From positions 40,184-104,183 of the forward strand of contig JASPKZ010004562.1 in assembly GCA_030220185.1 (NCBI GenBank): a stretch of DNA of 64,000 nucleotides. Reading direction: 5' to 3'. Position numbers and translations under genes: made by a program. The DNA is from Diploptera punctata (Eukaryota; Arthropoda; Insecta; Blattodea; Blaberidae). The notes below the pieces were generated by a model. That model saw only the letters and a program-made list of their open reading frames with translations. It made no database searches and was not told the origin of the DNA. Positions 2,289 through 61,016 of this stretch are shown here, in pieces. Positions within the stretch are counted from its first letter, which is position 1, and each line of letters starts with the position of its first letter.

Positions 2289-2300
2289 ACTGTAGTGTGC
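2289..2300. repeat. Left target site duplication of the PLE pair
   Basis: ACTGTAGTGTGC occurs here and again at 5272-5283, directly abutting the two outer ends of the inverted PLE pair. An exact 12-bp match exactly at the boundaries is unlikely by chance and marks one insertion event. Confidence 0.88.
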
Positions 2301-2354
2301 TCCCTATTAGGTTCGTCTTCCGGGCATATAGGCCGTGGTCCAGTCGTTCTTCTA

Positions 2355-2395
2355 CTCGACGTTTCGTCTACTGCTGCGGTAGACATCTTCAGGAG
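2355..2395 (-). ncRNA. Hammerhead-ribozyme-like motif, PLE left arm
   Basis: This is the mirror copy of the motif at 5147-5187. On the minus strand it reads CTGAAGA, one T, a GTCTAC/GTAGAC hairpin, then GAAACGTC. The three bases before the CTGA and after the GTC can pair (CTC with GAG). Activity is inferred from the pattern only; the extra base between the CTGANGA box and helix II departs from the textbook consensus. Confidence 0.6.
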
Positions 2396-2653
2396 ATACT
2401 GCGTGCTCTCTGTGAACTCCTCAACAGTCGGCTGCAGACTGGCTGGTCGTTGGAAACTCCCTCCCTATTTATAGGCACGCCCCTGGTGGAGAGGCGGTTT
2501 TCTGCGCGGTCCGTGTTGCGTGCTGTTTTGTCCAGGCTGTCGCTAGCAGAAGTCATAGGCTTCGTTGTCGTATTGTGCAGTGCCGGGATCCAGATTTTGT
2601 TTATCTTCATGGTTTCTTCTTTTTTGTTAAAGGAATTTTTGTGTTTATATATT

Positions 2654-3770
2654 TCAATGGCTTCTCTGTACAGTCTGGTGTAATAATGTGATGTTTGGGA
2701 CAATACCTGTGTTTCTTCGAATCTTATTATATGTTCTTGGTTGTTCATCCAGTGTTCCGCTACGGCTGATTTTTCCTTTTGTTTTAGTCTGCAATGCCTC
2801 TTGTAGTTCTTGCAATCTTGTGGTAACCATTCTTTTTGTTGTGCCGATATAAACCTGTCCACAACTGCAAGGGATGCGATATATACCGGCAGTACTTAAC
2901 GGATCTCTTGTATCTTTGGCTGGGCGCAGTATATTGCTGATTTTTTGTGTTGGCTTGTAGGTTGTAGATATGTTATATTTATTTAATATTCGACCAATTC
3001 TCTCCGTTATTGTCTTGATATATGGTAGGTACACCTTACCCTTTGCCTCCTCCTTGTTCCCGTTTTCGGATTTGTATTTATTGGGATTTATGGCTCGGCG
3101 AAAATCTGTTTTGCTGTATCCATTGGATTGAAACGCTGCTTGGAGATGATTAATTTCTTCTTGTAGATACTGTGGTTCCGAAATCCTTTTGGCTCGTTCC
3201 ACCAGGGTTTTAATTATTCCGCGTTTTTGTCTGGGATGATGGTTGGACCGCTTATGTAGGTATCTGTCTGTGTGAGTCTTTTTCCTATATACCTTGTGTC
3301 CAAGTGTCATGTCTTGGTTTCGAATTACTAAAACATCCATAAACGGTAGACTGTTGTTCTCTTCTCTTTCCAGGGTGAATTGGATGCTGGGACAAATACC
3401 ATTTAAATGTTGCCTGAAGTTATCAAGTTCTTCTTCACCATGCTCCCACATGACGAATGTGTCGTCCACATATCTCAGCCAAACTGAAGGTCTTAATGTA
3501 GCATTCTCCAAGGCCTGTTTTTCAAATTGTTCCATGTAAAAATTGGCTATTACGGGGCTTAATGGACTTCCCATGGCCACGCCATCTATTTGCTCGTAGA
3601 ATATTCCTCCCCATTGGAAATACGTTTCTGTGAGGCATATGTTATACAGCGCTACTATGTCTGGGGGAAAGAGTTCTTGCAAGTATGTCATAGTGTCTGG
3701 GATAGGTATCTTAGTAAATAAAGAAACCACATCGAAGCTTATTATTTTATCGTTTGGCTTGAGTTTCAGA
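2654..3770 (-). pseudogene. Penelope-like RT/GIY-YIG protein, left arm, frameshifted
   Basis: This reverse-strand copy encodes the PLE reverse transcriptase from the LKLKPNDKIISFDVVSLFTK region onward, so the N-terminal part of the protein is absent. Seen in order: GVAMGSPLSPVIANFYMEQF, the catalytic YVDDTF, the LPFMDVLV block, then GIYRIPCSCGQVYIG of the GIY-YIG endonuclease. A single inserted base near 2817 shifts the frame just after the YIG block, so the last part of the nuclease is read out of frame (LQELQEALQ instead of the RLQEHKRHC of the right arm). A second inserted base lies near 2612. There is no start codon because the copy is truncated at the palindrome centre. It is almost certainly non-functional on its own. 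Confidence 0.92.
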
Positions 3771-3771
3771 G

Positions 3772-4935
3772 CGTCTGAAACTCAAGCCAAACGATAAAAT
3801 AATAAGCTTCGATGTGGTTTCTTTATTTACTAAGATACCTATCCCAGACACTATGACATACTTGCAAGAACTCTTTCCCCCAGACATAGTAGCGCTGTAT
3901 AACATATGCCTCACAGAAACGTATTTCCAATGGGGAGGAATATTCTACGAGCAAATAGATGGCGTGGCCATGGGAAGTCCATTAAGCCCCGTAATAGCCA
4001 ATTTTTACATGGAACAATTTGAAAAACAGGCCTTGGAGAATGCTACATTAAGACCTTCAGTTTGGCTGAGATATGTGGACGACACATTCGTCATTTGGGA
4101 GCATGGTGAAGAAGAACTTGATAACTTCAGGCAACATTTAAATGGTATTTGTCCCAGCATCCAATTCACCCTGGAAAGAGAAGAGAACAACAGTCTACCG
4201 TTTATGGATGTTTTAGTAATTCGAAACCAAGACATGACACTTGGACACAAGGTATACAGGAAAAAGACTCACACAGACAGATACCTACATAAGCGGTCCA
4301 ACCATCATCCCAGACAAAAACGCGGAATAATTAAAACCCTGGTGGAACGAGCCAAAAGGATTTCGGAACCACAGTATCTACAAGAAGAAATTAATCATCT
4401 CCAAGCAGCGTTTCAATCCAATGGATACAGCAAAACAGATTTTCGCCGAGCCATAAATCCCAATAAATACAAATCCGAAAACGGGAACAAGGAGGAGGCA
4501 AAGGGTAAGGTGTACCTACCATATATCAAGACAATAACGGAGAGAATTGGTCGAATATTAAATAAATATAACATATCTACAACCTACAAGCCAACACAAA
4601 AAATCAGCAATATACTGCGCCCAGCCAAAGATACAAGAGATCCGTTAAGTACTGCCGGTATATATCGCATCCCTTGCAGTTGTGGACAGGTTTATATCGG
4701 CACAACAAAAAGAATGGTTACCACAAGATTGCAAGAACACAAGAGGCATTGCAGACTAAAACAAAAGGAAAAATCAGCCGTAGCGGAACACTGGATGAAC
4801 AACCAAGAACATATAATAAGATTCGAAGAAACACAGGTATTGTCCCAAACATCACATTATTACACCAGACTGTACAGAGAAGCCATTGAAATATATAAAC
4901 ACAAAAATTCCTTTAACAAAAAAGAAGAACCATGA
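3772..4935 (+). pseudogene. Penelope-like RT/GIY-YIG protein, right arm, open but 5'-truncated
   Basis: An uninterrupted frame of about 388 codons encodes the C-terminal half of a Penelope-like element protein. The RT palm motifs are intact (SFDVVSLFTK, GVAMGSPLSP, YVDDTF at about 4072-4089), followed by a linker and a GIY-YIG endonuclease (GIY at about 4657, YIG at about 4693) with its conserved downstream R and H residues. It ends with a lysine-rich tail (NSFNKKEEP) and a TGA. A GTG at 3814 is not a credible start, because the frame stays open back to the palindrome centre. The fingers region of RT is missing, so the copy is 5'-truncated although it has no internal stop. PLE proteins copy RNA at nicked ends made by the GIY-YIG nuclease; this fragment probably cannot do so alone. 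Confidence 0.92.
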
Positions 4936-5271
4936 AGATAAACAAAATCTGGATCCCGGCACTGCACAATACGACAACGAAGCCTATGACTTCTGCTAGC
5001 GACAGCCTGGACAAAACAGCACGCAACACGGACCGCGCAGAAAACCGCCTCTCCACCAGGGGCGTGCCTATAAATAGGGAGGGAGTTTCCAACGACCAGC
5101 CAGTCTGCAGCCGACTGTTGAGGAGTTCACAGAGAGCACGCAGTATCTCCTGAAGATGTCTACCGCAGCAGTAGACGAAACGTCGAGTAGAAGAACGACT
5201 GGACCACGGCCTATATGCCCGGAAGACGAACCTAATAGGGATCAAGACGCCGGCCGTGAAAGCCTACAGTT
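4936..5271 (+). other. PLE 3' region and terminus (right arm)
   Basis: This non-coding 3' region follows the stop codon. It contains the hammerhead-like motif at 5147-5187, then GACCACGGCC and GCCCGGAA boxes that recur in six short foldback elements in the window. It closes with 31 bases absent from the left arm that end in CCGGCCGTGAAAGCCTACAG. The same terminus, at one end only, occurs on the short elements, which ties them to PLEs. Confidence 0.75.
5147..5187 (+). ncRNA. Hammerhead-ribozyme-like motif, PLE right arm
   Basis: Core box CTGAAGA (5150-5156) fits CUGANGA. A spacer T is followed by helix II GTCTAC (5158-5163) paired with GTAGAC (5171-5176), then GAAA (5177-5180) and CGTC (5181-5184). 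Helix I would be CTC before the core with GAG after the GTC cleavage triplet. Helix III would be only the self-complementary ACGT, as expected for minimal PLE hammerheads that act as dimers. PLEs are known to carry such ribozymes; self-cleavage of this one is untested. Confidence 0.65.
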
Positions 5272-5283
5272 ACTGTAGTGTGC
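5272..5283. repeat. Right target site duplication of the PLE pair
   Basis: ACTGTAGTGTGC, identical to 2289-2300. Confidence 0.88.
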
Positions 5284-7075: not shown

Positions 7076-7123
7076 ATATGTTAGAATACTACTAGGTATA
7101 GAAACACGTTGTAAATTAAAATA

Positions 7124-7449
7124 TATATACAGTCAATATGCCCATTTCACCAATTAATGTTTTAAAATGGTCAACAAGTTTCTACAGCCAAGCTGTCATT
7201 CTCAAGACCAGATATTGACTGAAGACAAAATTGATAATAAATAAATAAACAAATTCAGTTAAAAACAAACTACGTCACAAACTACGTGACATATGTGACG
7301 TGGTTTGTTTTTAACTGAATTTGTTTATTTATTTATTATCAATTTTGTCTTCAGTCAATATCTGGTCTTGAGAATGACAGCTTGGCTGTAGAAACTTGTT
7401 GACCATTTTAAAACATTAATTGGTGAAATGGGCATATTGACTGTATATA
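7124..7449. mobile_element. Foldback MITE-like element with long inverted arms
   Basis: The arms (to 7279 and from 7294) are near-perfect reverse complements around a 14-base loop, starting ACAGTCAATATGCCC and ending GGGCATATTGACTGT. TA dinucleotides flank both ends. It encodes nothing. The whole unit would fold into one hairpin of about 150 bp. Confidence 0.8.
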
Positions 7450-8020
7450 AATTTTAATATTTTATCACCAAGAAGACCACTTGTGTATTAAATACGTTGT
7501 AAATTATTAGCACGTTGGATAGAAGTGATATAGTGCATGGATTTACCACAGCTTATCCCTTTAGTGGAATAAAAATATAGTAACATTTTGGGGTCAAATA
7601 ATTTGTTTTCATTAAGAAGTGATTCTCCCTAAATTTAAATGCTGCCAAACTAGATAAGGATTTGCCGTATATTTACTCAGGTAATTGTTAAAGGCGACGA
7701 AAGGGAATGTTTTGTAATAAAATTGGTAGTTTTCGTGGAAATTAAATTAAAACTTCTGCGTTTTGGAATATCGAAAGAGAAATGTTGCAATATGGAACTT
7801 CCCCTCCTACAGGTAAGACGCTCCTACTAAGCAACCAGTCAATGAATACAAACCTACTTTCGAGAAAAGAAATTAGCTCAAGTTTGCAGACATTCAGGTT
7901 TGTTTGTATCTTAATTAATTGCATTGATTTTAATAATGGAAACATTTACAAAACAAGAATATCTTGATTTTCATTTACAGATAATCACACATTCATGAAA
8001 CCGTGATTGTTCTAGACCGG
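7450..8020. other. No recognisable feature
   Basis: AT-rich sequence; the overlapping short frames at 7742-7967 on both strands have no domain signature. Confidence 0.5.
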
Positions 8021-14329: not shown

Positions 14330-14806
14330 TTAAAACTAAAAAATAAATAATAGTTTAAAAAACTAAAACAACACGCTTTATTAGAAAACCGAACTAAAAA
14401 ATGAAAAATAATTTTAATTTCCAACATGCTTGGGATAAAATTAAAGTGGTCAACAAAAAAAATAATCCCCAACACATTTAGAATAGAACTATAGTTATCT
14501 ACAAAAAAAATGCCATCAAAAGCGTGGGGTGTTCTATACCAATTAATATATTTGATAATAAACAGATATTGGTAAAAGTAAAATCTCCAAGAAGAAAATG
14601 TAAAAACCATAAAAAGAACCCTACGATTTTGATAGTAAAATATTTTTTTTGTAGATAACTACAGTTTTATTCTAAATGTGTTGGAGATGATTCACTTTAA
14701 TTTTATCCCAAGCGTGTTGGAAATTAAAATTATTTTCCAATTTTTAGATCGGTTTTCTAATAAAGCGGGTTGTTGTAGTTTTTTAAATTACTATTTCTTT
14801 TATTTA
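14330..14806. mobile_element. Foldback element with ~165-bp inverted arms
   Basis: Left arm 14330-14509 and right arm 14642-14806 are imperfect reverse complements (for example CGCTTTATTAGAAAACCGA against TCGGTTTTCTAATAAAGCG). They surround a spacer of about 130 bases. It is non-coding; the short reverse frame inside is not conserved. The divergence between arms indicates an old insertion. Confidence 0.75.
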
Positions 14807-16200: not shown

Positions 16201-16656
16201 AATGGGGTAATACGAAGACATTTTGGTAAACAGATGAGGACAGAGACAAAACTAAGATTACATAACATCACATCAAAAGTTGCCCTAAAATATGGAAGTG
16301 AAATTTGGATTTTAAATAAAAGAAACTCTCATAAATCTCAAGTAAGCCAAATGCGCTTCTTACGATCATTGTTAGGAGTTAATAGACTGGATCACCAAAG
16401 GAACACTACTATCAGAGGAAAACTTGGAGTAACAAGTTTAAATGAAGATATACAAAGATACCAACAAGAATGGAAAAATAATTTGAGAAGAATGCCAAGA
16501 AATAGACTTCCAAAATTGGTATTCCAATATACCCCAACTGGACATAGGGACCAAGGAAGACCAAAACATCGGTGGAAAGATCAAGACCATCTTCGCTAGG
16601 TTTACCGTACAGGCCACACGGCCTACAACGAATTTGTTCATGATGATGATGATGAT
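16197..16656 (+). pseudogene. LINE C-terminal fragment (family 4)
   Basis: The frame at 16123-16599 is open through MNGVIRRHFGKQMRTETKLR, ALKYGSEIWILNKR, RFLRSLLGVNRLDHQRN, NNLRRMPRNRLPKLVFQY and GRPKHRWKDQ. This is the C-terminal region that follows RT in RTE-like and related non-LTR elements (the YGSEIW, RMxxxRLPK and GRPxxRW pattern). The RT domain itself is absent, so it is a 5'-truncated copy. It ends with an ATG-repeat tail at about 16638-16656. A shorter relative lies at 41595-41840. Confidence 0.75.
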
Positions 16657-16725
16657 ATATATATGAATATGAAAGTTTTCTTGGGTTTTCCGCATCTTGG
16701 ATTCAAGTTCGGCCTCTGGGCCACT

Positions 16726-16776
16726 GATTCCGACGTTTCGGCATGATTCCACATGACATTATCAAGGATTGATAAG
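16726..16776 (-). ncRNA. Hammerhead-like motif, left arm of split foldback
   Basis: The minus strand reads CCTTGATAATGTCATG, a loop, CATGCCGAAACGTCGG. It is the degenerate counterpart of 19252-19295: helix II has one mismatch and helix I keeps about three pairs. Confidence 0.4.
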
Positions 16777-16820
16777 TTCGAATCACAGGTTCAGTCTTAT
16801 ATAATAAACATCCAAGGTTT

Positions 16821-18957
16821 TTTTTTTTTTGGCCGCATGAAGCGCCACCCAGTGTGCCGCGTTGGAACCAGGAGCAGCTCCCTGGCGGCGAATACCTTTG
16901 TGACTATCGAGTTGGGGTTTAGTCACTTAGCCTGCGCTTTTTTAGCGGCGTTGTTGTTCAGCTAAAAATTGATGTTGACGGGAGGTGAAATAAGTTGTTA
17001 CCTTGCTAGAGCAGGGCATCGTAAACCACCTGGCCGGGCAAGCAGAGAGTCCGAAAGCCGACCAGGAGGAATGAGCCACGCTACTCCAGCTGCAGCACAG
17101 CTCTCATTTCATGAAACTGGGACATCAAGGTCTGGGGAATATGTTCCGATGAGCTGCACGCAGCTGTAACGCATGCCCTATATTGCCAACAATGGGATTA
17201 GAATAACATGAAACATGTTATCCACACGTTGTTCAATTATAGTCGCAATATAAGGCATTTGCGATATGTTGCGATCCTCGTGTATAGAGGGGCCGAAACA
17301 ATAATTTTGAGACATTTGTTCTGTATTATCTGGACTTCGTTTTTGTGACAATAAGCGAGGATTCTCCAGGCTTCACAACCGTACAGCAACATGCTACGGA
17401 TCACAGCTGAATAAAGAGTCAGTTTGATCCGTGTTGACAGTGTAGGTGACTTGAAAAATGGATAAAGTAAGGCAATTGCCGCATTTGATTTATGAATAAG
17501 ATGCCGAATATGAATTTTGAACGTAAGTCTGGAATCCAAATGGATCCCAAGATACTTGACTGAAGGCTATTGTCGGAATTGGTGAGTTCCCAAGGTGAGT
17601 TGGATTTGGCTTCGTCTACTAGACTTAGAAAACAAAACAGCTTTAGTTTTGTTTACATTGAGTTTAATGTTCCATAGACGAAACCAGGAATGATAGGAAT
17701 TCAAGGCAGATTGGAATATAGGGATACGGCGAGGTAATAGACGGAAAGGTGTCTGTTGATACAAACAAGTATCATCAGCAAAGGATGCAAGGTGAATACG
17801 ATTGAAAGTTGGGATATCAGACACATAGAGAGTGTACAGTAAGGGAGAAAGGACTGCACCTTGTGGAACTCCCGCCAAGAGGGTCTTACAGTCAGAATTA
17901 TACCCACTAACCGACACATAAAATTGTCGGTTAGTTAGGTATTTAGCTATAATTTTAATTAAATCAGCCGAAATTTGAAATTTGATTAATTTGTATAATA
18001 AACAATTTATCCAAGTCGTATCGAATGCCTTCTCAATATCGAGGAATACTGCCAAAGTACTTTTCTTGTTGTTGAATCCCGTTACAACCTGGTCAACCAA
18101 TCGAGCAAGCTGGAACGGAGTACTATGTGTTTTTCTAAAGCCAAATTGGTGAGTAGGAATAAGGTTTCTCTCTACCACCTCTTGTTTTAGTCTTGCCAAA
18201 ATTATTTTCTGCAGAACTTTCCCCAGCACAGGTAGAAGACTGATTGGCCTTAAGTTGTCTGGGTGGGTTGGATCTTTCCCAGGTTTAGGGATAGTGATAA
18301 CTTTGGCTTTTTTCCAGACTTCAGGGAAGTACTGGAACTTAAGACAAAGCTTCACTATCTGAAGGAATAGGAGTAGGACTTTTGGCGGTAAATATTTTAC
18401 TGCCAGGTTTGGTATCCGGTCATGACCGGGGGCGCGAACGGAAGGGAGATCATGGATTACGGCTATCAATTCCGAAAGCCGTATATCTGGAAGGGTGAGA
18501 GGGATGGGTCTTTCAAGAAAAGTACTTACTGTATGATGTACTTCAACTTCATGAGCCTGTGTGGTGAGTTCATGTGGCGGAACCGTAGTGCAAGATGATT
18601 AGAGAGGATTTGGGCTTTCTCCTGTGGGAGATAAGCCCAAGTTCCATTATCATTAATTGCAGAAGGAGGAGCCGGTGCTCGACTCCGTTTTATTCTTTTG
18701 AGAATCGTCCACGGGGGCGTTTTAAGATCAGTAAAGCGCTGGAGGGACGAGTCCCATTCAGCATTTCTCATTTCTTGCAATCGATTCCGCACCAAATGAG
18801 TGTAGCGATTGTGTAGCTGTTTGTATTGGGGTGCGCCGAAAGTACGGTATAACCTGAGATACCGCTTTTTTTCATTTAGATAATTTTGAAGTGTGGGATC
18901 GTATGGTCGTGTGTGTGTAGTGTCATTTGTTGGCGTTGTAGAAAGTGTAATGGCCAC
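16821..18957 (-). mobile_element. Jockey-type LINE, 5'-truncated, with poly(A) and TSD
   Basis: The element lies in reverse orientation. Its poly(A) tail appears as a T run at 16818-16830. A direct repeat CATCCAAGGTTT flanks it (16809-16820 and 18958-18969; the last T residues merge with the tail). It is 5'-truncated inside the ORF2 region. The 3' 400 bases (16831-17235) are non-coding 3' UTR. The site of insertion is the arm of the ribozyme-like foldback, so the LINE is the younger of the two. Confidence 0.9.
17237..18957 (-). pseudogene. Jockey-type reverse transcriptase, frameshifted
   Basis: Three consecutive reverse frames make up the protein: 18526-18957 (linker upstream of RT, PPWTILKRIKRSRAPAPPSA), 17567-18469 (RT) and 17237-17539 (C-terminus). 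RT motifs seen in the 300-codon piece are DRIPNLAVKYLP, PISLLPVLGKVLQKII, LDIEKAFD (about residues 143-150), AGVPQGAVLSPLLYTLY and the catalytic FADD (about 230-233). The C-terminal piece has FKIHIRHLIHKS and YGCEAW. The arrangement is that of jockey-clade LINEs. The endonuclease is missing because of 5' truncation, and at least two frame breaks separate the pieces. The first ATG lies in the target site duplication and is not a native start. Confidence 0.9.
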
Positions 18958-19251
18958 CATCCAAGGTTTAGTTAGTTCTTATGTTGTTAAATACCTTCAG
19001 TTTTCAGTGTGGTCCGTTTCCGAAGCCGTACACCTATCCAAACTGTAGTTAAAACTGAAGACGTTTAACTACATACGAACTAAACCTTGGATAGGTGTAC
19101 AGCTTCGGAAACGGACCACACTGAAAACTGAAGGTATTTAACAACATAAGAACTAAACCTTGGATGCTTGTACGTCTTCGGAATCGGACCACAGCGAAAA
19201 CTCTATGCATTTTATTATATATAAGACCTAAACATGTGACTTGAACTTATC

Positions 19252-19295
19252 ATTCCTTGATAATGGCATGTGGGATCATGCCGAAACGTTGGAAT
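19252..19295 (+). ncRNA. Hammerhead-like motif, right arm of split foldback
   Basis: The core is TTGATAA (19257-19263, two changes from CUGANGA), then a spacer T, helix II GGCATG (19265-19270) with CATGCC (19277-19282), then GAAACGTT. Helix I is strong: ATTCC (19252-19256) pairs with GGAAT (19291-19295). It has the same topology as the PLE motif but completely different stems, which supports selection for structure. The core substitutions suggest loss of activity. Confidence 0.5.
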
Positions 19296-19434
19296 CAGTG
19301 GCCAGAGGCCGACCTTGAATCCAAGACGCGGAAAACCCAAGAAAACGTTCATATTCATACTTATATCCGCGAAAATCTGCAATATAACATATATATATAT
19401 ATATATATATATGATATGAAAAGAAAAAAGAATG

Positions 19435-19506
19435 CTTGAGTCGGGATTTGAACTCGAGTCTCTAAAGTCTGTACCTTTTGCGCTCTAACCAACTGAGCTA
19501 CCCAAG
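19435..19506 (-). tRNA. tRNA-like repeat (family T2, copy 1)
   Basis: The reverse strand folds as a cloverleaf: acceptor CTTGGGT/ACTCAAG with one wobble, D-arm GCTCAGTTGGTTAGAGC, T-arm with GAGTTCAAATC box B. The anticodon arm has a 6-bp stem possibility with loop GTACAGA and a mismatch in this copy. A second copy with the same flanking GATATGAAAAGAAAAA sequence lies at 43005-43076, so this is a dispersed tRNA-derived repeat rather than a unique gene. Confidence 0.5.
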
Positions 19507-22500
19507 AATTCCAAGACAAACATACAATTTTCTTATACATGTAGTATTCTCAATTCACACAAGAGGTAGCGGAAATATCACTCAACTACCATCTAGCGGC
19601 TAACCTAACAGTTAAGCAAATTATTAAGGAGAATATTTACTTTATAGCAGTAACGCTTGTATATATAGATATTATATTTATAATATATATATATATATAA
19701 TGGTTCAATTATACTTTTTAGAACATTACTATTCAATATATTACATAAACGCTGTTTAGTATTGCCCGGTAAGAGGTTTGTCACGCGAGAGTTTGCCTTC
19801 ACACTGATTACTGAACTGAACGAGACGTAAACTGCGAATTCTATTGTATCACATTGCAAAGAATAATGTATATTCGTTTGACATTTCTTTGCTTTTCAGC
19901 GATAGTTGTAGGGTATTTTCTTAACACAAGTTACAAAACATGTTAAATACTATATTCCTCAAGCATCGTATCAGTAGTATTGTATTTAATAAAATTAAGC
20001 GTTAGTCTTGGTGAATTATAGTTACTATGCTCGCCTCTGGTTCATACGTTTCCGGGTGGATTTTTGTTTTCAGGGCGTAAACATCCTGAGTATTAGTTCC
20101 TTTGAACTAAAGCTATGTTGTAGATGTTTCAGCACGTAAAATTACCAAAAACTCTAAAAAAGCATTTGTGAACAAAATTGTAGCCCCTTCAGGCTCATAC
20201 TTAAACTGCTACGCTCCTTTCACGCCCAGATTTGAATTGTGAAGCTAATGTTCTGTTTAACAGCATTGTTAAATAAAAAAATAACATAAATAATAAAGTA
20301 AGCTATCCTGCAAATACTGATGGGATTTCGAATGTTCGACATAATAAGAGTAGTATTTTGTTTAATGACTCTCTTCAACAACTTATGATTATTAGCGCTG
20401 AATTAAAAGCAGGGCGCGCATATTGTTCTAGCAGTTTCCACTGGATTTGAACATGCGGAGGTGAGCATGGCATCCACTAGTTCTCCGGAATAGAATTTTG
20501 TCTAAAACAAATATAATACACACGTTATATAATTTGAATGAAATCTACAAATTATTTTTTTAACTTCCACATTTTGCTTAAACATAGGCCTACTAAACTT
20601 TTAATCAAAGAGAAAACATCCTTCCTAAACCGGGATATAAATCCAATATCTCCTGCTTTACGTACTGCTACACTAAAGCATTGAGCTACTTACCAATCCA
20701 GGAAGAGTAATAAAATGTAGCGGACTGGAATAGTTTAAATGAGGTGAGATGAGAACATGCATCAGACATGAGCATGATGAGTGTTGTGATTATGGTCTTG
20801 CGACAACTCCAAACATCGCTGCAATCAACATTCCTCCTCTCCCACTCACAAATTTAGACACCAACATATACTCGTTCCAACTTCTCAGTGACTAACATGC
20901 AAACTCCCTCAAGTATTATCTGTTGGTCTTGCAGGATTGCATATCAATTAGTGTAATCAGCGTTTTCTCACTACTGGAATAATATGTAGTGATAGGAGCA
21001 GGGTGGAAGCTGGGACTACTTACTTAGAAGCGACAAATTCGATAAAAGTATGCAGAGTTATTATGAAAATTTAAAATTTGTAAATATTTGAGATGATATG
21101 CTAACAATGGACATCTCAATTGAGTATTTAGTCGATATTTATATTTTGAGTCAATGTCATATCTGTTCAAAAATCTTTGTATAGAATAGAAATAAAATTT
21201 TACTGTTCATTGGTAGTGTGCTTGACAATAACTTAAGATCGTGAGTTCAAACAGGTCAAGAACTTAAGTTTCTAAAACCAGACATCACAAAGAATGCCTT
21301 GTCTAAGAGTAAAAATAATCACAAACAGTTTCTATTTCCTCAATGTGAGGTCACACAAATCATGACGACATGGAAATATCCTAATCACATTTTCTTAAAT
21401 TAAGGTACAAAGGGACTCATGATTTGTCATCAGCCTAAAGCATCGACCTTCTTCTAAGACAAATAAATTACATTTTCTGAGTGGGCTTCAGAGACACCTG
21501 ATTAGATTAATAGAACGTCATATTTCTAACAGGTTCTTACCAATCACAATATATATATATATTATTGCCATCCCACAGCAAAACGGAACATTTGGAGATA
21601 GCTTAAATCAGACATTTTCTTAAATCCGGAAAAAAGTGCATTATCTACCTTAAAGTAATTGGGACCTGCCCAAAATGTTTGACTGGCTGATTTTGCTTTA
21701 GAACCTCCTTCTGCTGTAGGCCTAATAGCAGACAACCGATCAGGTATAATGTACGCTAGTTCGTTCAATACATCCATTGGAATGTGTCCCTGTTACAAAT
21801 TCTCACTCAGTTGAACAAAGGAATTTGACCGCATCTCTCGAGATCTTACTGACTTGTACAATTCGTTCCAAAGCTGTTCTATGAAATTGAGTTCAGGATT
21901 CTGTGAGGACCAGTCCATCGGCGATCATAATTGTCTACAGCTCGAGTCCAAGCTCTGTGTGTTTACGGGGGGAAGTGTGGGGAGTGGGAGGAGGTACACG
22001 TCTCAGCTTCTCATAGTACTAACAGCTGAGACAGCAAATTCGTTTCAGACACACGGAGCTGGGTCCCGAGCAGTACATACCACTGCATAGTAGCCTGTCT
22101 GTGAAACATAGCACCTAGCACTGTCATCCTGTTCATAAAAACGCCTCGTTGTTGGGAGGCTTTCAACATCCACAATTGTACAATATCTCTATCATTTTAT
22201 TATGCCACTTATAACCACTGGCGGTCCCACACCGCTGTATGGAAAACAACGTCATTCCACACCACCAAAATCCTGTTAGGCACTGCATATTCAGGTAGAA
22301 GATGATCGTCGGATAGTCGCCGTACCCAACATGTCTATCAGTTTGAAATAATGCGAATCTATACTCATAACTACATAGAAACTATTTCCATTCCTCTAGT
22401 GTCGAGTTGCTTCGTCCAATACTACCCAGGACTCTGAGCTTTATTCACCTTCATGATATGCCGCTGTCCTTCAGGAATAACATAGTTCGCGATGTTTCAA

Positions 22501-23292: not shown

Positions 23293-23430
23293 GTAATAAT
23301 TGGTACTAGTGTAAAGAAAAATAAACAACAAAAAAAGCAATAACATTACAATTACATAAAGTAAACACAATAATAATATTACAATTAAATAATAACACAA
23401 TAGCATTAAACACTAAAGAACATTAACATT

Positions 23431-23862
23431 ACAGGGCCTCCCCGAAAAGTGACCAACTCAAGGCTATACCCAACACAAAACGAACATTTAGTACATGACA
23501 TAGCTTAGCATTCACTCATAAATTCATACTGAACAAAACTAATATAATATGGGTAAATATAATAAACATATATAAAAATATATATTTGGGGACTACTTGG
23601 ACTTTGAAGTTTTATGACATTTGACTTAACTGCCAAATAAACAATTCAGGAAACTTGTTTCAACCTGGTCCCGCTGCATCGGAGAAACCAATGGACAGTG
23701 GTCTATACTATAATAGCAAGTACTCAAAGGCTTGCTATTATAGTATAGACCACTGTCCATTGGTTTCTCCGATGCAGCGGGACCAGGTTGAAACAAGTTT
23801 CCTGAATTGTTTATTTGGCAGTTAAGTCAAATGTCATAAAACTTCAAAGTCCAAGTAGTCCC

Positions 23863-23898
<36 letters not shown>

Positions 23899-24032
23899 TA
23901 TTATATTTACCCATATTATATTAGTTTTGTTCAGTATGAATTTATGAGTGAATGCTAAGCTATGTCATGTACTAAATGTTCGTTTTGTGTTGGGTATAGC
24001 CTTAAGTTGGTCACTTTTCGGGGAGGCCCTGT
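23431..24032. mobile_element. Large palindromic MITE with TA-flanked CAGGGCC termini
   Basis: Two arms of almost 300 bp are close to perfect reverse complements around a loop near 23724-23738. The ends are TA-CAGGGCCTCCCCGAAAAGTG and its complement, so TA is the likely target duplication, pointing to the Tc1/mariner superfamily. An AT run inside the right arm (23867-23894) has expanded relative to the left arm. There is no coding capacity. A degraded relative of part of an arm is seen near 39345-39400. Confidence 0.85.
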
Positions 24033-24420
24033 ATATCCTTATGTGAACAAACTTTATGTCTATAATCCTGAGTTAAAAATTCTCACTTGGCAGGCTGGGA
24101 GGCATGAGGCAAGTATAAAGGTAGAAATTAAAGTGAGAAAGAAAGAAAAAGAAAGAAAGAAAGAAAAGAAGGAAATGGAAATTTAACTATTGGGAGAGAG
24201 GCAAGCATTGTTCTTATTCCAACTATAGAATCACTATTTTTTAGTCTTCTTCTTTTTCATCATCTTCTTCTTCTTCTTCTTCTTCTTCACGGTTTAGGCT
24301 TATTTATTTTCTAGTATGGAATTAATTCTTGAAGGCACAGAGGACAGAGAACGTTCGGGAACTTTAATTAAGGGAAATTTGTGAATGTTTGTTGCAAACT
24401 GATAGTTTATAAGTCCATAG

Positions 24421-26204: not shown

Positions 26205-26208
26205 GTGG

Positions 26209-26474
26209 AATGCAGGCTTTTACGGCCGGTGATTATGTAAAAGATTCCGGGCTATGTGGCCGTGGTCTATAACTGGCGTTTCTTCCAGACGTTTCTCCCT
26301 CAACTGCGGAGGGCATCTTCAGTGGCGAGCGCTTACAGCTGTTGCTTCTCTGTCGTAGACTCGACTGCGAATGAACAGCAGAAAGCTGGACGCTCTTTTT
26401 TTTTACTAGTGCTGACGTCACGTGAGTCCCAGCTTTTATTACCATGATTACCAGCCGTGAAAGCCTGCATTCCA
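26209..26474 (-). mobile_element. PLE-derived foldback element (subfamily 1) with GTGGAATGCAGGC ends
   Basis: The ends are AGTGGAATGCAGGCTTTTAC on the left and, reversed, AGTGGAATGCAGGCTTTCAC on the right. Both carry the CCGGCCGTGAAAGCCTGCATTC-type terminus on the outward strand. The left half has the GACCACGGCC box and a ribozyme-like motif at 26283-26325; the right half is unrelated except for its terminus. No clear target duplication is seen beyond the palindromic ends. Confidence 0.7.
26283..26325 (-). ncRNA. Hammerhead-like motif
   Basis: The minus strand reads GCCA-CTGAAGA-T-GCCCTC, loop CGCAGTT, GAGGGA-GAAACGTC-TGG. Helix I (CCA with TGG) and five of six helix II pairs are intact. It is the same family as 46199-46241. 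Confidence 0.55.
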
Positions 26475-27137: not shown

Positions 27138-27524
27138 GTCATAAAATAAAATAAGTTAAAATATACCTTCTTAGGTAAAATCCGTCGTCCTCAACTTATA
27201 AAATATGTAATCTTTATGCCTGTAGGCCTTTCAGAACATCCGTTCCATCTTCAGCAGGCCACTCTTCGCTACAACATCCAGTATGATGGTTGATGCTGCT
27301 GGTTCTAATGTGGCTCTGTCGTGACTAAAGCTTATTCCTGACGACAGAGCCACATTAGGACCAGCAGCATCAACCATCATACTGGATGTTTAGCGAAGAG
27401 TGACCTGCTGAAGATGTAATGGATGTTCTGAAAGGCCTACAGGCATAAAGATTACATATTTTATAAGTTGAGGACGACGGATTATACCTAAGAAGGTATA
27501 TCTTAACTTATTTTATTTTATGAC
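27138..27524. mobile_element. Foldback element with ~180-bp arms
   Basis: It begins GTCATAAAATAAAATAAG and ends with the reverse complement. The arms (to about 27321 and from about 27342) are highly similar around a short loop. The arms contain CTGCTGAAGATGGAAC..GTTCTGAAAGG on the outward strand (rightward in the right arm, 27398-27442). This is the same CTGAAGA-stem-GAAA arrangement as the ribozyme-like motifs but without a clear GTC. It carries no gene. Confidence 0.75.
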
Positions 27525-27813: not shown

Positions 27814-28358
27814 TTAATGAACGAGTTGGAGAAAATGCTTTAACATCTCACTTCATAAAGTTGAGTGTCTTCACGATACCGGTTTCAAAAGTATAGTATT
27901 ACTTCCATCTTCAGTCAAATTCCAACTGTCAAAATTTTGTCGTTAACATCATTTTCTGAACTGCTATCTGGTGTCGATTTTATGAACTTGGGAAAATTTT
28001 TATGAAAATCTGCAATTGCAGGTCATAGTTTTCTAGAGAATCACAAAATCGGAAGAGAAACTAAACTTTTGAAACATTTGGAAAAACCTTTGGAATTGAC
28101 AGTTTGGCAAAATATATACATTTAGAAGAATAAATATAAAGTAATGGATTTTGATAACCCCGACGATAATAATTCGATCTCCAAGTACATAAAATCGACA
28201 CCAGATGACAGTTCAGAAGATAATGTTAACGACGAAATTTCGACAGTTGGAATTTGACTGAAGATGGAAGTAATACTATAATTTTGAAACCGGTATCGTG
28301 AAGACACGCAACTTTATAAGGTGAGATGTTAAAGCGTTTTCTCCAACTCATTCATTAA
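27814..28358. mobile_element. Foldback element with ~170-bp arms and ~200-bp spacer
   Basis: Left arm 27814-27985 and right arm 28187-28358 are reverse complements with some mismatches, ending TTAATGAACGAGTTGGAG and its complement. Each arm has GACTGAAGATGGAAGTAATA..TTTTGAAACCGGTA on the outward strand (right arm about 28255-28296). The ribozyme-like order is kept with helix III ACCGGT and a possible GTA cleavage triplet, though helix II is weak. The spacer is unique and non-coding. Confidence 0.75.
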
Positions 28359-29178: not shown

Positions 29179-29329
29179 GGCATTACTTATGATAAGCAGG
29201 TATCAAATTTAAAAATGTACAAGCACAACATTAAATTAAGTGTATGAACAATGGAATCATATGATGTTTTTATTATTAATTTAACATTTCTCAATGAAAG
29301 ATAAATTAAATTTGAAGAGAAAAATTTTC

Positions 29330-29402
29330 GCCTAGACCGGGACTCGAACCCGGGACCCTTGGCTTTCCGGGCCAAGTGCTCTACCAACTGAGCTACCGAG
29401 GC
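29330..29402 (-). tRNA. tRNA-like sequence, family T1, copy 1
   Basis: The cloverleaf reads GCCTCGG acceptor, GCTCAGTTGGTAGAGC D-arm, anticodon arm CTTGGC-CCGGAAA-GCCAAG (six pairs, seven-base loop), and T-arm CCGGGTTCGAGTCCCGG. The acceptor has one C:T mismatch, position 33 would be C rather than T, and the anticodon stem is one pair too long. Boxes A and B are perfect and a T run follows on the sense strand (GCGAAAATTTTT). If GGA is the anticodon it would be serine, but the long variable arm of tRNA-Ser is absent. It is best treated as a transcribable tRNA-like repeat. Confidence 0.5.
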
Positions 29403-30072: not shown

Positions 30073-30106
30073 GAAAATTTTTCTCTTCAAATTTAATGGA
30101 ATCATA

Positions 30107-39511: not shown

Positions 39512-39705
39512 CTGATCTTGAAGAAGATTTCCGGGCTGTAGGCCGTGGTCTTGAGGCTTGAAGTTGTCTGAGACAACCCTTGACGATGCCAGACGCAGTC
39601 TCTGGCGAAACGTCGGGGAGCTTCAAGCCTCAAGACCACGGCCTACAGCCCGAAAATCTTCTTCAAGATCTTCATAGCAACTCCGGCCGTGAAAGCCTAA
39701 GTCAA
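39512..39705 (+). mobile_element. PLE-derived foldback (subfamily 2) with 10-bp TSD
   Basis: GATTTCCGGGCTGTAGGCCG and CGGCCTACAGCCCGAAAATC are the inverted arms. A single ribozyme-like motif lies between them at 39577-39617. The right end alone carries ACTCCGGCCGTGAAAGCCTA. TATTTATTAA flanks it at 39502-39511 and 39706-39715. At 194 bp it is the shortest member. Confidence 0.85.
39577..39617 (+). ncRNA. Hammerhead-like motif
   Basis: CCC-TTGACGA-T-GCCAGA, loop CGCAGTC, TCTGGC-GAAACGTC-GGG. Helix II has six perfect pairs (39588-39593 with 39601-39606) and helix I has three (CCC with GGG). The first core base is T instead of C. Confidence 0.55.
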
Positions 39706-40024: not shown

Positions 40025-40327
40025 CGATGGTTGTATACAGGACGGGAAATGAGTGATTTGAGTATCACAGGTCTTGCATCTGTAGTCACGCTAGTAGAAT
40101 ATCTGACGGCAACATTCCAGTGCTTCGAAGAAAGTATTTTGCAACTTACAAAATGGCTGCTTTCATAATATTTTCAGGTATTAAGTCGAATGGCACAGAG
40201 AAAAAACTTATAGTAGATCCATGACCTTGAACTGTGTTTATAAAGTTAAATGCAGGCTTTCACGTCCGGTAATTTTAATGTTGAGTGATTCCGGGTTATG
40301 TGGCCGTGGTCCATTACTGGTGTTCCT

Positions 40328-40371
40328 ACCAGACGTTTCTCCTTCATTTGCGGAGGACATCTTCAGTGGTG
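40328..40371 (-). ncRNA. Hammerhead-like motif, left arm
   Basis: The minus strand reads ACCA-CTGAAGA-T-GTCCTC...GAAGGA-GAAACGTC-TGGT. Helix I is four pairs (ACCA with TGGT). Helix II has mismatches. Confidence 0.5.
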
Positions 40372-40418
40372 AGTACTGAGGCTGAGCCTCCGACTAGGAA
40401 ACACACTTAGAAGTACTC

Positions 40419-40461
40419 GCCACTGAAGATGCCCTCCGCAGATGAGGGAGAAACATCTGGT
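40419..40461 (+). ncRNA. Hammerhead-like motif, right arm
   Basis: GCCA-CTGAAGA-T-GCCCTC...GAGGGA-GAAACATC-TGGT. The GTC triplet is changed to ATC and one helix II pair is lost, so this copy is probably inactive. Confidence 0.45.
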
Positions 40462-40526
40462 AGGAACACCAGTAATGGACCACGGCTACAACCCGGAATC
40501 ACTCAACATTATGTGTTTATAAAGTT

Positions 40527-42966: not shown

Positions 42967-43004
42967 ATACTCGTATATATATGATATGAAAAGAAAAATG
43001 AATG

Positions 43005-43076: not shown

Positions 43077-43121
43077 AATTCCAAAAATATATTTATAATA
43101 TCTATATATATATGTATATAT

Positions 43122-43164: not shown

Positions 43165-46059
43165 CTTTCTTTTACCTAGCAGCAATGAGGACTTAAGGTC
43201 ATGCTTACCAATCAACCAGGTTAGAAAAAATAGTCCTATTATCTAAATTACAATAATTACCCATGCCGGACTGGTCGAAGGTGATAAGCCAGACAAAAAA
43301 AGTACCTTGGGCGAAAGAGTGACGATCTTTCACCGTAAAAATACAACCGTCAAGAAATGCGGACATGGGTTCATCTGGGGTAAAATTTTCCGGAGGTCAA
43401 ATAGTCCCCCATTCGGTTCTCCGGGCGGGGACTACTTCAGAGAACCCATGCCAAAGGCTCAAACACAGGGACATGTTCCTAGGAACATGGAATGTTAGGA
43501 CTTTATACAATAGCGGGGCACTAGAGATATTAACGCGGGAATTAGATAAATCACCCTTGGGTATAGTCGCTTTACAGGAAGTTAGGTGGTCAGGAGAAGG
43601 TAGTCAGGAATCAGGAAGCTTTGCATTATTTTACGGGGCTGCAGAAAGACCTGCATTTGGAACAGGTTTTTAGTCAGAAGGAGGATCCTATCCGCTATCC
43701 GAGATATTAAGTTTGTCAGTGATAGGATATCATACACAATTCTAAAGGGTAAACGACATGATTTTATAATTGTAAATGTGCATGCCCCCACAGAAGATAA
43801 AGATGACAAGATCAAGGATGAGTTCTAAGAAGAATTAGAATGCTTATTTGATAGCCTTTCACGATATAATATGAAAATTGTCTTAGGAGATTTTAATTCA
43901 AAAGTGGGGCGGGAAGATATAATCAAACCAACAATAGGCAAATTCAGTCTTCATGAAGATAGTAACGACAACGGGGTAGTAGATTAGTCACATTTGCCAC
44001 ATCAAAGAATCTCATTGTTAAGAGCACAACATTTCAGCATAAGGATATTCATAAATACACCTGGGCGTCCCCAGATGGAGAAACTCGGAACCAGATAGAT
44101 CATGTATTAGTGGATAAACGCTAGCAAAGCAGCATCATCGATGTTAGATCAGTTAGAGGGACGGACTGCAATTCGGATCATCATCTGGTCAGAGTGAAAA
44201 TAAGACATCGGCTATCGCTTATGAGAGGAATAAACGCTAAAGATGATTCTGTAAAATTTGAATTAAAAAAAAACTTGAAAAATGATGAAATACGGCAAGA
44301 ATACCAAATCAAAATTGCTAATAGATTTGAAGTACTATAATCTTCAGATGACAATGTGGCAAACAAGAAGAAGAAACTGATATAAATAAAGAATGGGAGG
44401 CTATAAGAGATACTATTAAATTGTCAGCATCGGAAAGCATTGGTAGTTTAAAAAAAGAGGCAAAACAAGAAATGGTTTGATGAGGAATGTGCTGACATTG
44501 TGAAGAAAAGAAAGGTAGCAAAATTTAAATGGTTACACGAGCCAAATGAGGTACAATTAGAGCAATTGGGTAGTATTAGACGGGAAACCACCAAGTTACT
44601 AAAGAGTAAAAAGCGGGAATATTTGAGAGAGAAGATTAATGATCTTGAAATAAATGCAAAAAATAGGAACATTAGAGAATTATATCAGGGAATTAGCATA
44701 GAGGAGAAAGGGTTTCAGGCTAGAACAAACATAATTCGGAATGAAAATGGGGATATGATTGCAGATTCCAGTAGTATATTAAATAGATGGAAAAGTTACT
44801 TTAATCAGCTATTAAATGTACACACAGAACAGGATATTGAGGAGGATAATTTACATACAGCAGAAATGCTAGTCGCAGAACCAAGTGCATTAGAGGTTGA
44901 AATGGCGATAGAAAAATTGAAGATGTATAAAGCATCAGGTTCGGATGAGATCCCAGCAGAAATGATAAAATTAGGGGGAGAAAAATTGATGGACAAGATA
45001 CGCTGGTTGCTTAGTATGATTTGGGAAAAAGAAGCTCTTCCAGATGAATGGAAGGAATAAATTATCATACCAATTTATAAGAAAGGAGAATAAAACTGAT
45101 TGCAACGACTATAGGGACATCTCATTACTTTCAACTTCGTACAAAATTCTAACAAATATATTAGTAAGCAGACTTACTCCCTATGTTGATGACATTCTAG
45201 GAGATCATCAATGTGCATTTAGAAGAAACAGGTCTACAACAGTTCAGATTTTTAGTATATGACAGATTTTAGAAAAGAAATGGGAATACAATGGTACTGT
45301 ATATCAACTATATGTTGACTTCAATAAAGCATATGATTCAATTAAGAGGGAGAAGTTATATAGTATCCTGCTGGAGTTCGGAATTCCTAAAAAGTTAGTT
45401 AGACTTATACGAATGTGTCTAAATGGCACAAAGAGTAGGGTGCGTGTAGGCAAACAGTTTTCGGACACTTTTGTAATCCAGAATGGGTTGAAGCAAGGAG
45501 ATGCACAATCTCCTCTACTATTTAATTTTGTACTAGAGCATGCCATTAAATCTTTAGAGAATGGGGAAGGCTTACAACTCAATGGTATTAATAAGCTGTT
45601 AGTTTATGCTGATGTTGTAGTACTACTGGCCGATAGCGAGGAGATACTAAAGAACAACACGCACACACTATTGAGTATAATTAAGAAATTAGGACTGGAA
45701 GTAAATATCAGTAAAACTAAATATATGGTCACACGTAGAAATTCAGTATATAATGGAAATGCGACAGCTAATGAAAAATGCCTGGGAAATTTTGAGGAAG
45801 TGGCTGAATTCAAATACCTAGGAACAATAATCACAAATAGGAATGAGATGCACAAAGAAATTAAAGATAGGCTCAATTCTGGAAATGCATGCTATTATGC
45901 ATTGCAGAGACTTTTGATGTCCCAACTCCTTTCAAAAAACGTTAAGCTGAAAATATATAAAACTGTTAATCTACCAGTTGAATGCAGGCTTTCACGGCCG
46001 GTAATCATGATGTTGAGTGATTCCGGGTTCTGTGGCCGTGGTCCATAGTTGGTGTTGAT

Positions 46060-46102
46060 ACCAGACGTTTCGCCCTCAACTGCGGAGGGCATCTTCAGTG
46101 GC
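46060..46102 (-). ncRNA. Hammerhead-like motif, left arm
   Basis: Exact mirror of 46199-46241. Confidence 0.6.
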
Positions 46103-46198
46103 GAGTGCTTCTAGGCGTGTTTCCTGGTCGGAAGCTCTACTTAGAGTACTACTACTCTAAGTAGAGCTTCCGACCAGGAAACACGCCTAGAAGCACTC

Positions 46199-46241
46199 GC
46201 CACTGAAGATGCCCTCCGCAGTTGAGGGCGAAACGTCTGGT
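46199..46241 (+). ncRNA. Hammerhead-like motif, right arm
   Basis: GCCA (46199-46202), CTGAAGA (46203-46209), spacer T, GCCCTC (46211-46216), loop, GAGGGC (46224-46229), GAAACGTC (46230-46237), TGGT (46238-46241). Helix II has six perfect pairs, helix I has three Watson-Crick plus one wobble, and the cleavage triplet would be GTC. It is the cleanest motif in the window. Confidence 0.65.
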
Positions 46242-46774
46242 ATCAACACCAACTATGGACCACGGCCACAGAACCCGGAATCACTCAACATCATGTTAAT
46301 CTACCAGTTATATTATATGGGTGCGAAGCATGGACTCTTACTTTAAGGGAGGAAGGGAGATTACGAGTATTTGAGAATAAAGTTCTTAGGAAAATTTTTG
46401 GACCGAAGAGAGATGAACAGACAGGTGAATGGAGAAGATTACATAACAATGAACTACATGGTCTTTATAGGAAGCCAGATATAATAAGAACAGTTAAGTC
46501 TCGTAGAGTGCGATGGGCAGGACAAGTTTGCGCGTATGGGGAATGAAAGACGTGCATGGAAGCTTCTTGTAGGAAAGCCAGAGGGAAAACGCCCAGTTGG
46601 TAGACCAAGAATGAGGTGGGAGAACAACATTAACTATGATTTGAGGGAAGTAGATTATACAGGGAATGATTGGAAAGCATTAGCTCAGGATAGGGATGTA
46701 TGGAGAGCTTATGTCCGCGCTGCCATGAACCTACGGGTTCGATAGTGCCAGTGAGTAAGTAAGTAAGTACAATA

Positions 46775-59411: not shown

Positions 59412-59715
59412 CATTATTATTACTAATTTCCCATGGGATTCTGGGGTTAAGAGGTTGTGCTTATTTGTGTTATTGTTGTGCCAGGTTTTTGATTTTGAAT
59501 TTACAATGGACTCATTAGTAATTATAATTATTTTGTAATGGATTCTGAAGATGGTCTAATATCAATCACAATATAAGTGATGAAACAAAGAGTGGGATAC
59601 AAAATTAATGTGATTATAAAATAAACAATATTAAATAAATGTTTCGTCAGCGGAAATATAAAATAATTGAACAATATTTTCCAATTTAACTTTTATAGGA
59701 AGAGAAAATCACTAT
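59412..59715. other. No recognisable feature
   Basis: AT-rich sequence. Confidence 0.45.
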
Positions 59716-59946
59716 GAGGTTTTAATTTAAAATGTTTTATACCTCACCTCATGTCCAGTCTTCTAATTATACCAGTTTCGAAGCTTTGGGCAGCTTCATC
59801 TTCACTAATTTCTTGTCGATTGATGTTATGTCCATCTGTTCTCAGTCGACAAGAAATGACTGAATATGAAGCTGCCCAAGCTTCGAACTCCGGTACAATT
59901 AGAAGACTGGACATGATGTAAGATATAAAACATTTTAATTTAAATC
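59716..59946. mobile_element. Foldback element with ~100-bp arms and a hammerhead-like motif
   Basis: Left arm 59716-59820 and right arm about 59842-59946 pair with several mismatches (TTTTAATTTAAAATGTTTTA and AAAACATTTTAATTTAAATC; CCAGTCTTCTAATT and AATTAGAAGACTGG). There is no coding capacity and no clear TSD. Confidence 0.75.
59765..59810 (-). ncRNA. Hammerhead-like motif
   Basis: The minus strand reads AATTA-GTGAAGA-T-GAAGCT, loop, AGCTTC-GAAACTGGTA-TAATT. Helix I is five perfect pairs (AATTA with TAATT), helix II six, and helix III could be the near-palindrome ACTGGT with GTA as cleavage triplet. The first core base is G instead of C. The right arm copy is more degraded. Confidence 0.5.
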
Positions 59947-60775
59947 TTAATATTTTCCAATTCGAGGTCACTTATTCCTTCCGTGAGACAGAGATTTCGC
60001 TCTTCTGAAAAGAAAAATCAAAAGGAGTGATCGAATTTACACATTGAGCAACTATTGAATTTCAAGCCAGAGGATAGAGATTTCAAGTAGTAATCCCTGA
60101 TTGTTCTGACCTAACGGACTATAAAAATTGGTGGCCAAATTTACAAAAAAAAAAAGTGACTTCTCAAAAGCCATCAGGAAGACGAGTTCCAAGGCAGCAG
60201 AAATAATCATTTAATATTGTATCACTACTAATAATGGTGCAATCATCGCACAGTATTTTATTGATGGCCTACAGTAGCATATAGTCCCGTATCATTAGTA
60301 ATGATTGAATAACTTTTCCTACCATATATCAGCATATCCTCCAATAAAGAAAATAACAGTTGATGACATACTCAAGGTAATAGAGTATATCCCTCAATAG
60401 GAAGAAATTACTAGCTTCTATGATGAATTACGTAGTTGGGCAGTGTGTGATTAATGTAATTTATAAAGTGTTTCCACTGACTGAATGAGTTTGGAGAAAA
60501 TAGTTATTATGTTTATATTATGTAGGCATATTAATTTTCTTTTTAAAATATTTAAGACATTCATTTTAAAGTTTTCTGTATCTCAATTATTACAAAATTT
60601 AAAAAAAAAACATTTACTTTTAGTGAAAGTGTGCATTTATTACAGAAACAACATAGGTATAACGTTTTTAATTGATTACAATAATTATATACAATTTATT
60701 CTATATTTTAAAATATGGAAACCATCTTAAATGTGACATAGAACTCATAAAAATTCTTCTCGCAATGATGATCTT
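59947..60775. other. No recognisable gene
   Basis: AT-rich; the 81-codon frame at 60485-60730 is rich in F, I, N and K as expected by chance in this composition. Confidence 0.5.
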
Positions 60776-61016
60776 GTAGATGTAGAAGATTTCCGGGCTG
60801 TTGGCCGTGATCTTGAGGCTTGTAGTTCCTCGACGTTTCGCCAGAGACTGCGTCCGGCATCCTCAAGGGTTGTCTTGAGACTGGCAATTTTGTCGACTAC
60901 CTGCCCTATGTATACATTTATCCGCGACGTCGGGGAACTACAAGCCTCAAGACCACGGTCAACAGCCCGGAAATCGTATACAAGATCATCATAGTAACTC
61001 CGGCCGTGAAAGCTTA
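60776..61016. mobile_element. PLE-derived foldback (subfamily 2, second copy)
   Basis: Arms TTTCCGGGCTGTTGGCCGTG and CACGGTCAACAGCCCGGAAA, with TTGAGGCTTGTAGTTCC and its complement inside. The left half has a ribozyme-like motif at 60831-60869. The right end alone has ACTCCGGCCGTGAAAGCTTA, as in 39512-39705. No target duplication was recognised. Confidence 0.8.
60831..60869 (-). ncRNA. Hammerhead-like motif
   Basis: The minus strand reads CCC-TTGAGGA-T-GCCGGA...TCTCTGGC-GAAACGTC-GAG. Helix II keeps GCC..GGC with an internal mismatch. It is similar to 39577-39617. Confidence 0.45.

Follow-up and report, generated by a model that had tools for sequence, protein, structure and literature searches.

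Introduction

The stretch of Diploptera punctata DNA analysed here, 64,000 nucleotides long and referred to below as the window, raises the question of why one hammerhead-like RNA motif recurs at eight places within it and of what the elements are that carry it. The initial annotation assigned the motif to a Penelope pair and at least six foldback elements. The role of the hammerhead in Penelope-like elements (PLEs) has been called 'still a mystery' (PMC7761336), and in the thousands of insertion records kept by this genome one can read which RNA was copied and in what way. Our reading, to which we give a probability of about 0.75, is that a PLE hammerhead lies over the start codon in families with a GTC cut triplet, that the paired elements are two-ended PLE insertions, and, least certainly, that the mRNA would cut itself as a brake.

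The motif is a minimal type I hammerhead

The described order of core, one base, hairpin, GAAAC and triplet is present at all eight listed places. A strict scan of the window (helix II of at least 5 bp, helix I of at least 3 bp, GUN triplet) returned 9 matches, against a mean of 0.017 and a maximum of 1 in 60 first-order Markov versions of the window. Across the genome (3.12 Gb, 10,165 contigs), exact matches to the pattern CTGANGATG-N12-24-CGAAACGTC number 15,163 (reversed control 0), the GAAACCGGTA form of the GGTA class has 4,342 (control 1), and the GTC form with the inserted base left free has 17,101 (control 11). For seven of the eight places a covariance model of seven variants gave E values from 2.3e-14 to 5.7e-08, but for 59764-59811 a value of 4.3; since 5144, 19251, 39574 and 46197 are themselves members of the model, only 26282, 40326 and 60826 count as independent finds. 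The Rfam hammerhead search gave no match in the whole window at E up to 5 or in 46190-46260 at E up to 10. Over the genome, RF00163 is uninformative because it was silent in every control genome.

The seven GTC/GTT variants of the covariation alignment were partly selected by a pairing requirement; in them all counted pairs form (100% of 62 cells), 7 of 9 pairs show two-sided changes, and the covariation score is 0.841 versus 0.240 in shuffles, a value reached by 0 of 500. When the structure is slid out of register, pairing falls to 34-41%. Because of that selection, we added a strand-swap test on the GGTA class, whose members D and H lie outside the alignment and whose search pattern fixes the core and the first stem base, not the helix. 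In 34 helix II variants, hand-picked among the 100 matches listed, 5.5 of 6 positions pair versus 4.66 after swaps (maximum 5.09 in 1000). Contiguous pairing is limited to 2-4 pairs in several of them. The earlier proposal of a conserved RNA structure with paired change in both helices is thus borne out; helix II does covary across variants, and the claim that it stays complementary fails at one of six positions at 26283 and two of six at 40328.

Stem III is reduced to one to three pairs, as in the PLE-type minimal hammerhead, and in each of the two main classes it is its own complement (ACGU, ACCGGU), in keeping with predicted cutting as a dimer. The motif is of an already known kind, the minimal type I hammerhead of PLEs, and cleavage is predicted. 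The known examples (Cervera and de la Pena 2014; Lunse, Weinberg and Breaker 2017; in part as given in PMC7761336) share the order of CUGANGA, helix II, GAAA and helix I, and likewise have almost no stem III, a location in the pLTR, thousands of copies and proposed dimer cutting. Metazoan retrozymes also carry type I hammerheads in short non-autonomous repeats, but they are described as tandem repeats propagated via circular RNA (PMC7229834), whereas the elements here are inverted pairs. Retrozyme-like tandem units, each with an intact hammerhead, were not found: the pairs are inverted, and 601 bases of one tandem array hold no GAAAC.

The state of the core differs among the copies (Table 1). 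CUGANGA is kept at 5147, 26283, 40328 and 46199, and the other four of the eight places, which had been described as sharing a CTGANGA-like core, are altered: C3 is U in the copies at 19252, 39577 and 60831, the first of which also has G8 changed to A, and C3 is G at 59765. These four copies are probably dead, because C3, and at 19252 also G8, has changed; the importance of both bases was tested in PMC11167929. Besides these 4 of the 8 sites, the strict scan or the model shows the strict core in partner arms of A, D, F and G (the plus-strand arm of F was checked in part). All eight places in the initial annotation are real, and it overlooked the partner arms of A, B, F and G and both motifs of D.

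Table 1. Insertions, hammerhead copies and coding frame in the window
Feature	Positions	Strand	Remarks
Pair A	2298..5275	.	two 5'-truncated PLE copies head to head; tail right only (about 5245-5271)
Hammerhead, left arm of A	2352..2398	-	core intact; overlooked earlier; strict scan, model
PLE reverse transcriptase frame, right arm of A	3763..4935	+	mirror copy 2654-3781 on minus strand
Hammerhead, right arm of A	5144..5190	+	core intact; AUG at 5156 opens PLE leader; strict scan, model
Pair B	16654..19367	.	inverted arms 16654-16808 and 19211-19367; 2.4 kb between
Hammerhead of B	19251..19296	+	core decayed (C3, G8); partner 16726-16771 (-)
Insertion C	26208..26472	.	long left arm, very short right arm; tails both sides
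Hammerhead of C	26282..26328	-	core intact, one helix II mismatch; model
Pair D (GAAACCGGTA class)	27814..28358	.	arms 27814-27991 and 28181-28358
Hammerhead-like motifs of D	27877; 28258	-; +	strict scan
Insertion E	39514..39670	.	hammerhead in right arm only
Hammerhead of E	39574..39620	+	C3 to U; model
Pair F	40249..40513	.	tail left; 15-bp duplication 40233-40247 / 40512-40526
Hammerhead of F	40326..40372	-	core intact, two helix II mismatches; partner 40417-40463 (+)
Pair G	45980..46295	.	tail left (about 45980-46005); inserted in LINE
Hammerhead, right arm of G	46197..46243	+	core and helices intact; AUG at 46209; partner 46058-46104 (-)
Pair H (GAAACUGGUA class)	59713..59952	.	81% self-complementary
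Hammerhead of H	59764..59811	-	C3 to G; strict scan, weak in model
Insertion I	60765..60992	.	complete hammerhead in left arm only
Hammerhead of I	60826..60872	-	C3 to U; model

The inserted base and the start codon

The initial annotation saw in the single base before helix II a departure from the usual consensus that might define a variant. The base itself is real: with that position left free, the 100 matches listed comprise 94 with T, 5 with G and 1 without the helix. This is the fair count, as the 139 of 140 scan matches with one extra base are circular, nearly all of those loci having been fetched with the base fixed. Known hammerhead alignments do, however, contain insertions where CUGAnGA meets the neighbouring stems, of one or two nucleotides at most (PMC10085705), so the extra base by itself defines no variant.

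In the GTC families, the PLE frame starts with an AUG made up of A9, the inserted U and G10.1. This AUG opens 27-65 codons in A, C, E, F, G and I, part of that length reaching into flanking DNA, and the encoded peptide starts M-x-x-A...ETS, with GAA ACG TC giving E-T-S in frame in six families. A tandem copy (L059) extends the frame to 91 codons. The first 89 residues encoded there resemble the N-terminal part of an anole PLE protein (26 of 56 positions matching, E 9e-12). The arrangement resembles that of PAc, the Poseidon PLE of Anolis carolinensis, whose ORF reportedly starts where stem II does, so that C3 and G8 precede the start codon, and whose cut site lies 26 bp after the start codon, versus 28-29 nt here (PMC11167929); by analogy, the same inserted U is likely in PAc. 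We note that in the subfamily CTGATGAGG, which comprises the 5 G cases, the usual AUG is lost and an upstream in-frame AUG is present at A6-U7-G8.

The in-frame E-T-S in six families could be taken to mean that the motif is kept purely as a protein-coding leader and that its likeness to a hammerhead is accidental. We consider this very improbable: both helices covary as the encoded residues change, helix I lies outside the frame on its 5' side, and the GGTA class retains the core and a covarying helix without the frame. In D and H, which belong to that class, the U is kept, yet no more than 5-10 codons follow from the AUG, and the U there needs more than coding to explain it.

The foldbacks are head-to-head PLE cDNA pairs

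The link to Penelope made in the initial annotation holds. The frame at 3763-4935 in Pair A contains RVT_1 (Pfam, E 5.2e-12), and the best-scoring named relative is from Anolis sagrei (63% identity over 99%), the named relatives being largely from animals. The same frame contains CSCGQVYIGTTKR, which we take to be GIY-YIG-like; Pfam at E up to 0.001 reports no GIY-YIG endonuclease on 3763-4935, and some homologs carry PF01541. The description of the foldbacks as unrelated-looking has to be given up, since A, C, E, F, G and I share the coding leader, and those relatives of A and G that were fetched consist of two PLE cDNAs joined head to head, with target duplications. The 'foldback elements' are such pairs. 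The short ones copy the mRNA leader, which they cover from the inferred transcription start as far as the reverse-transcription start sites.

The listed sites lie in inverted pairs, those of C and I with one much shorter arm, and the ribozymes and tails point outward. Pair A is a near-perfect palindrome (2298-5244, 99.6% self-complementary) between copies of the target duplication ACTGTAGTGTGC at 2289-2300 and 5272-5283. Pair G is inserted between the copies of a 16-bp duplication (45964-45979 and 46294-46309), its arms 46006-46148 and 46153-46295 are 100% complementary with a 4-nt gap, and both begin at the inferred transcription start. No target duplication was found at Insertion C (26208-26472). 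The interior of Pair B holds a LINE-type reverse transcriptase frame (17567-18598, minus strand; RVT_1 E 2.8e-35), either a nested insertion or captured sequence.

Long perfect palindromes may arouse the suspicion of an assembly artefact, and the arms of Pair A at 2806-3770 and 3774-4738 are 100% complementary over 965 nt with a 3-nt gap. Separate insertions nonetheless differ in arm length and show target duplications and single tails, and other copies of the LINE that hosts Pair G show the site without the insert. An artefact is hardly credible as the source of the pairs.

Insertions across the genome

The outward arrangement recurs outside the window. Among the 100 ribozyme matches listed, 33 neighbour pairs at most 6 kb apart point outward, 0 point inward and 2 lie on the same strand; among the 83 tail-motif matches listed outside one tandem array, whose 17 places were left out, the corresponding counts are 38, 0 and 1. 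For a closer view we assembled 66 insertions, six of them from the window and the other 60 fetched; both arms could be placed on two family references in 48. The 18 that were dropped (L033, L034, L041, L045, L050, L051, L057, L058, L059, which overlaps L060, L062, L067, L073, L076, L079, L082, L086, wE and wI) were divergent, single-armed in the sequence retrieved or without a match to the two references. Direct target duplications flank 42 of the 48 (9-19 bp, mostly 10-16 bp), against 1 of 48 in a shifted control (L083), and 6 have no convincing duplication. Exactly one 3' tail is present in 46 of 48; the two insertions with two tails, L060 and wC, both lack a duplication.

Short inverted arms and direct duplications are MITE-like, and the foldbacks could in principle be independent DNA elements of the foldback or MITE type that are moved by a transposase with the ribozyme as a passenger. 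We give this hardly any weight. Arm lengths form a continuous series that runs from the bare leader up to 1.8 kb with PLE coding sequence, the ends match the two known PLE tail positions, and the arms are unequal.

Where the arms begin is informative about the RNA that was copied. In the 45 simple insertions (the 48 minus L036, L060 and wC), 33 of 90 arms start at most 8 nt from the transcription start, which was inferred from sequence only (TATA and an Inr-like element in A, an Inr-like element in G), and both arms do so in 14 insertions. We note that a single C or G lies between two arms beginning at +1 in L087 and L063; this could be a cap that was copied, but with two cases nothing is proved. 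In the 31 remaining insertions, the arm ends lie at most 30 nt apart in 14, versus a mean of 2.75 and a maximum of 9 in 5000 permutations, so the arms were not shortened independently. The centres of L037, L043, L061, L068 and L088 have loops that continue the native sequence of one arm, a mark of cDNA folding back.

These features bear on an alternative in which insertion is one-ended and self-primed, a single cDNA folding back and copying itself into the second arm, as was proposed earlier for the Adineta Penelope with an antisense template (PMC3846280). Palindromic centres with short native-sequence loops, the agreement of arm ends above chance and the near-identity of long arms all favour it. 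The unequal insertions tell against it: 17 of the 45 have arms whose lengths are more than 30 nt apart, and 12 of these carry the tail on the shorter one. In those 12, neither arm is a copy of the other, because the tail-bearing arm is the shorter and each arm has unique RNA-derived sequence; for the same reason both target ends were apparently primed. A full copy to the primer should, moreover, invert the tail and flank, whereas the duplications are direct. We therefore regard self-priming as an unlikely account, and retain two-ended insertion. A common template molecule for both arms is unsupported, because the arms of one insertion, compared with the nearest other insertion, were mutually closest in only 2 of 16 and 0 of 12. 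An apparent clustering of arm differences at the outer ends proved wrong on checking.

Proposed insertion mechanism

In the two-ended mechanism that we propose as the simplest account, the PLE would make a staggered break at the target, and both 3' ends of the break would prime reverse transcription of PLE RNA. One end would use a distal start site, about 115 nt into the ORF, and so leave a tail, and the other a proximal site, about 85 nt into the ORF, and leave none. The two cDNAs would then be joined head to head, either by end joining or by snap-back of one cDNA and annealing to the other, and come to lie between duplications of mostly 10-16 bp. The RNA structure with its covariation, the PLE identity, the outward pairing, the duplications, the single tail and the leader-length arms are observed; two-ended priming, snap-back and uncut capped templates are the parts that we infer.

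The PAc protein offers the closest comparison, as it is described as cutting and extending both target strands and as starting from two neighbouring sites, some 110-118 nt into the ORF, that delimit the tail, as here (PMC11167929). The insertion records agree with the anole enzyme in vitro in that both strands are extended, two start sites are used and the ribozyme is dispensable for insertion. The anole enzyme chooses its start sites equally on the two strands in vitro (PMC11167929), and the one-tail rule is therefore not predicted from it; the rule is an addition that can be tested directly in a reconstituted reaction. PAc loci are described as tandem (PMC11167929), whereas the copies sampled here are mostly head-to-head pairs with one tail.

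Head-to-head inverted pLTRs, one of which may carry a tail, together with target duplications and palindromic junctions, and with self-priming as the proposed explanation, were already described for the Penelope of Adineta vaga (PMC3846280), and the elements here share that arrangement. They differ in that copy number in Adineta vaga is very low and the duplications cited for it are 8-10 bp, versus mostly 10-16 bp here; the word hammerhead has 0 occurrences in the PMC3846280 text drawn on. As far as we have seen in a limited literature search, the counts, the near-strict one-tail rule and the argument from unique RNA-derived sequence in both arms are new, and we claim no priority.

Role of the ribozyme

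If cleaved RNA served as template, arms would begin at the cut site. Only 1 of 90 arms starts at most 3 nt from it, a count biased by the choice of loci for an intact ribozyme, so pairs found by the tail motif were used as a ribozyme-blind test. In these 38 tail-only pairs, 11 gaps fall at 190-208 nt, where two full leaders are expected to give about 200, and no peak appears at the values for two cut ends (about 32) or one (about 116); the nearest gaps are 19, 24 and 103. Most templates seem uncut, because full-leader gaps are common and pairs found by the tail show no cut-site peak. Ribozyme mutants likewise leave PAc insertion unaffected in vitro (PMC11167929).

Our favoured role for the ribozyme is self-inactivation of the mRNA, which is the least certain part of the account and is suggested by the position of the motif and by analogy with PAc, whose RNA is reportedly cut only with the protein present (PMC11167929). 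A dimer held by the self-complementary stem III would probably do the cutting, and the cut would behead the element's own mRNA, taking off the cap and AUG. The brake model is weakened by the passages cited from PMC11167929, in which no PAc RNA reads begin or end at the cut site, a result that tells against frequent cutting in vivo. Our tentative proposal, which may well prove wrong, is that the two break ends use different RNA start sites, hence the one tail, on capped uncut mRNA, and that the hammerhead would be a self-destruct switch on the mRNA and template once protein is present, not a step of transposition processing.

Other repeats

Several further repeats were noticed. The tandem array L091 (G000:C9:2254880-2255480) consists of units of about 137 bp from a G-type leader and occupies 17 places on one strand over 2.5 kb, among the matches listed; the units read no longer have GAAAC or the second half of helix II, and the array looks like a satellite with a dead ribozyme. 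Within the window, inverted pairs with outward hammerhead-like cores lie at 7115-7458 (TTGAGAAT..GACAGC..GCTGTA GAAAC; model matches 7167-7211 on the minus and 7362-7406 on the plus strand, at only E 1.4) and at 31696-31934 (CTGACGAT..GAAACATGTTC), where stem III would be ACAUGU. The inverted pair at 27138-27524 carries CTGAAGATGGAAC..GTTCTGAAAGG in its left arm, changed in the right arm, a ribozyme-like remnant without a cut triplet. The inverted pairs at 23430-24033 and 14340-14801 show no clear hammerhead core by eye. Rfam matches to MIR5200 and mir-576 were rejected as long inverted repeats with scores under the gathering level. tRNA-like matches above the Rfam gathering score lie at 29329-29402, 29633-29705, 30000-30073, 19433-19507 and 43003-43077; three of them fall within an inverted or repeated cluster at 29.3-30.1 kb, and the matches are perhaps tRNA-derived repeats.
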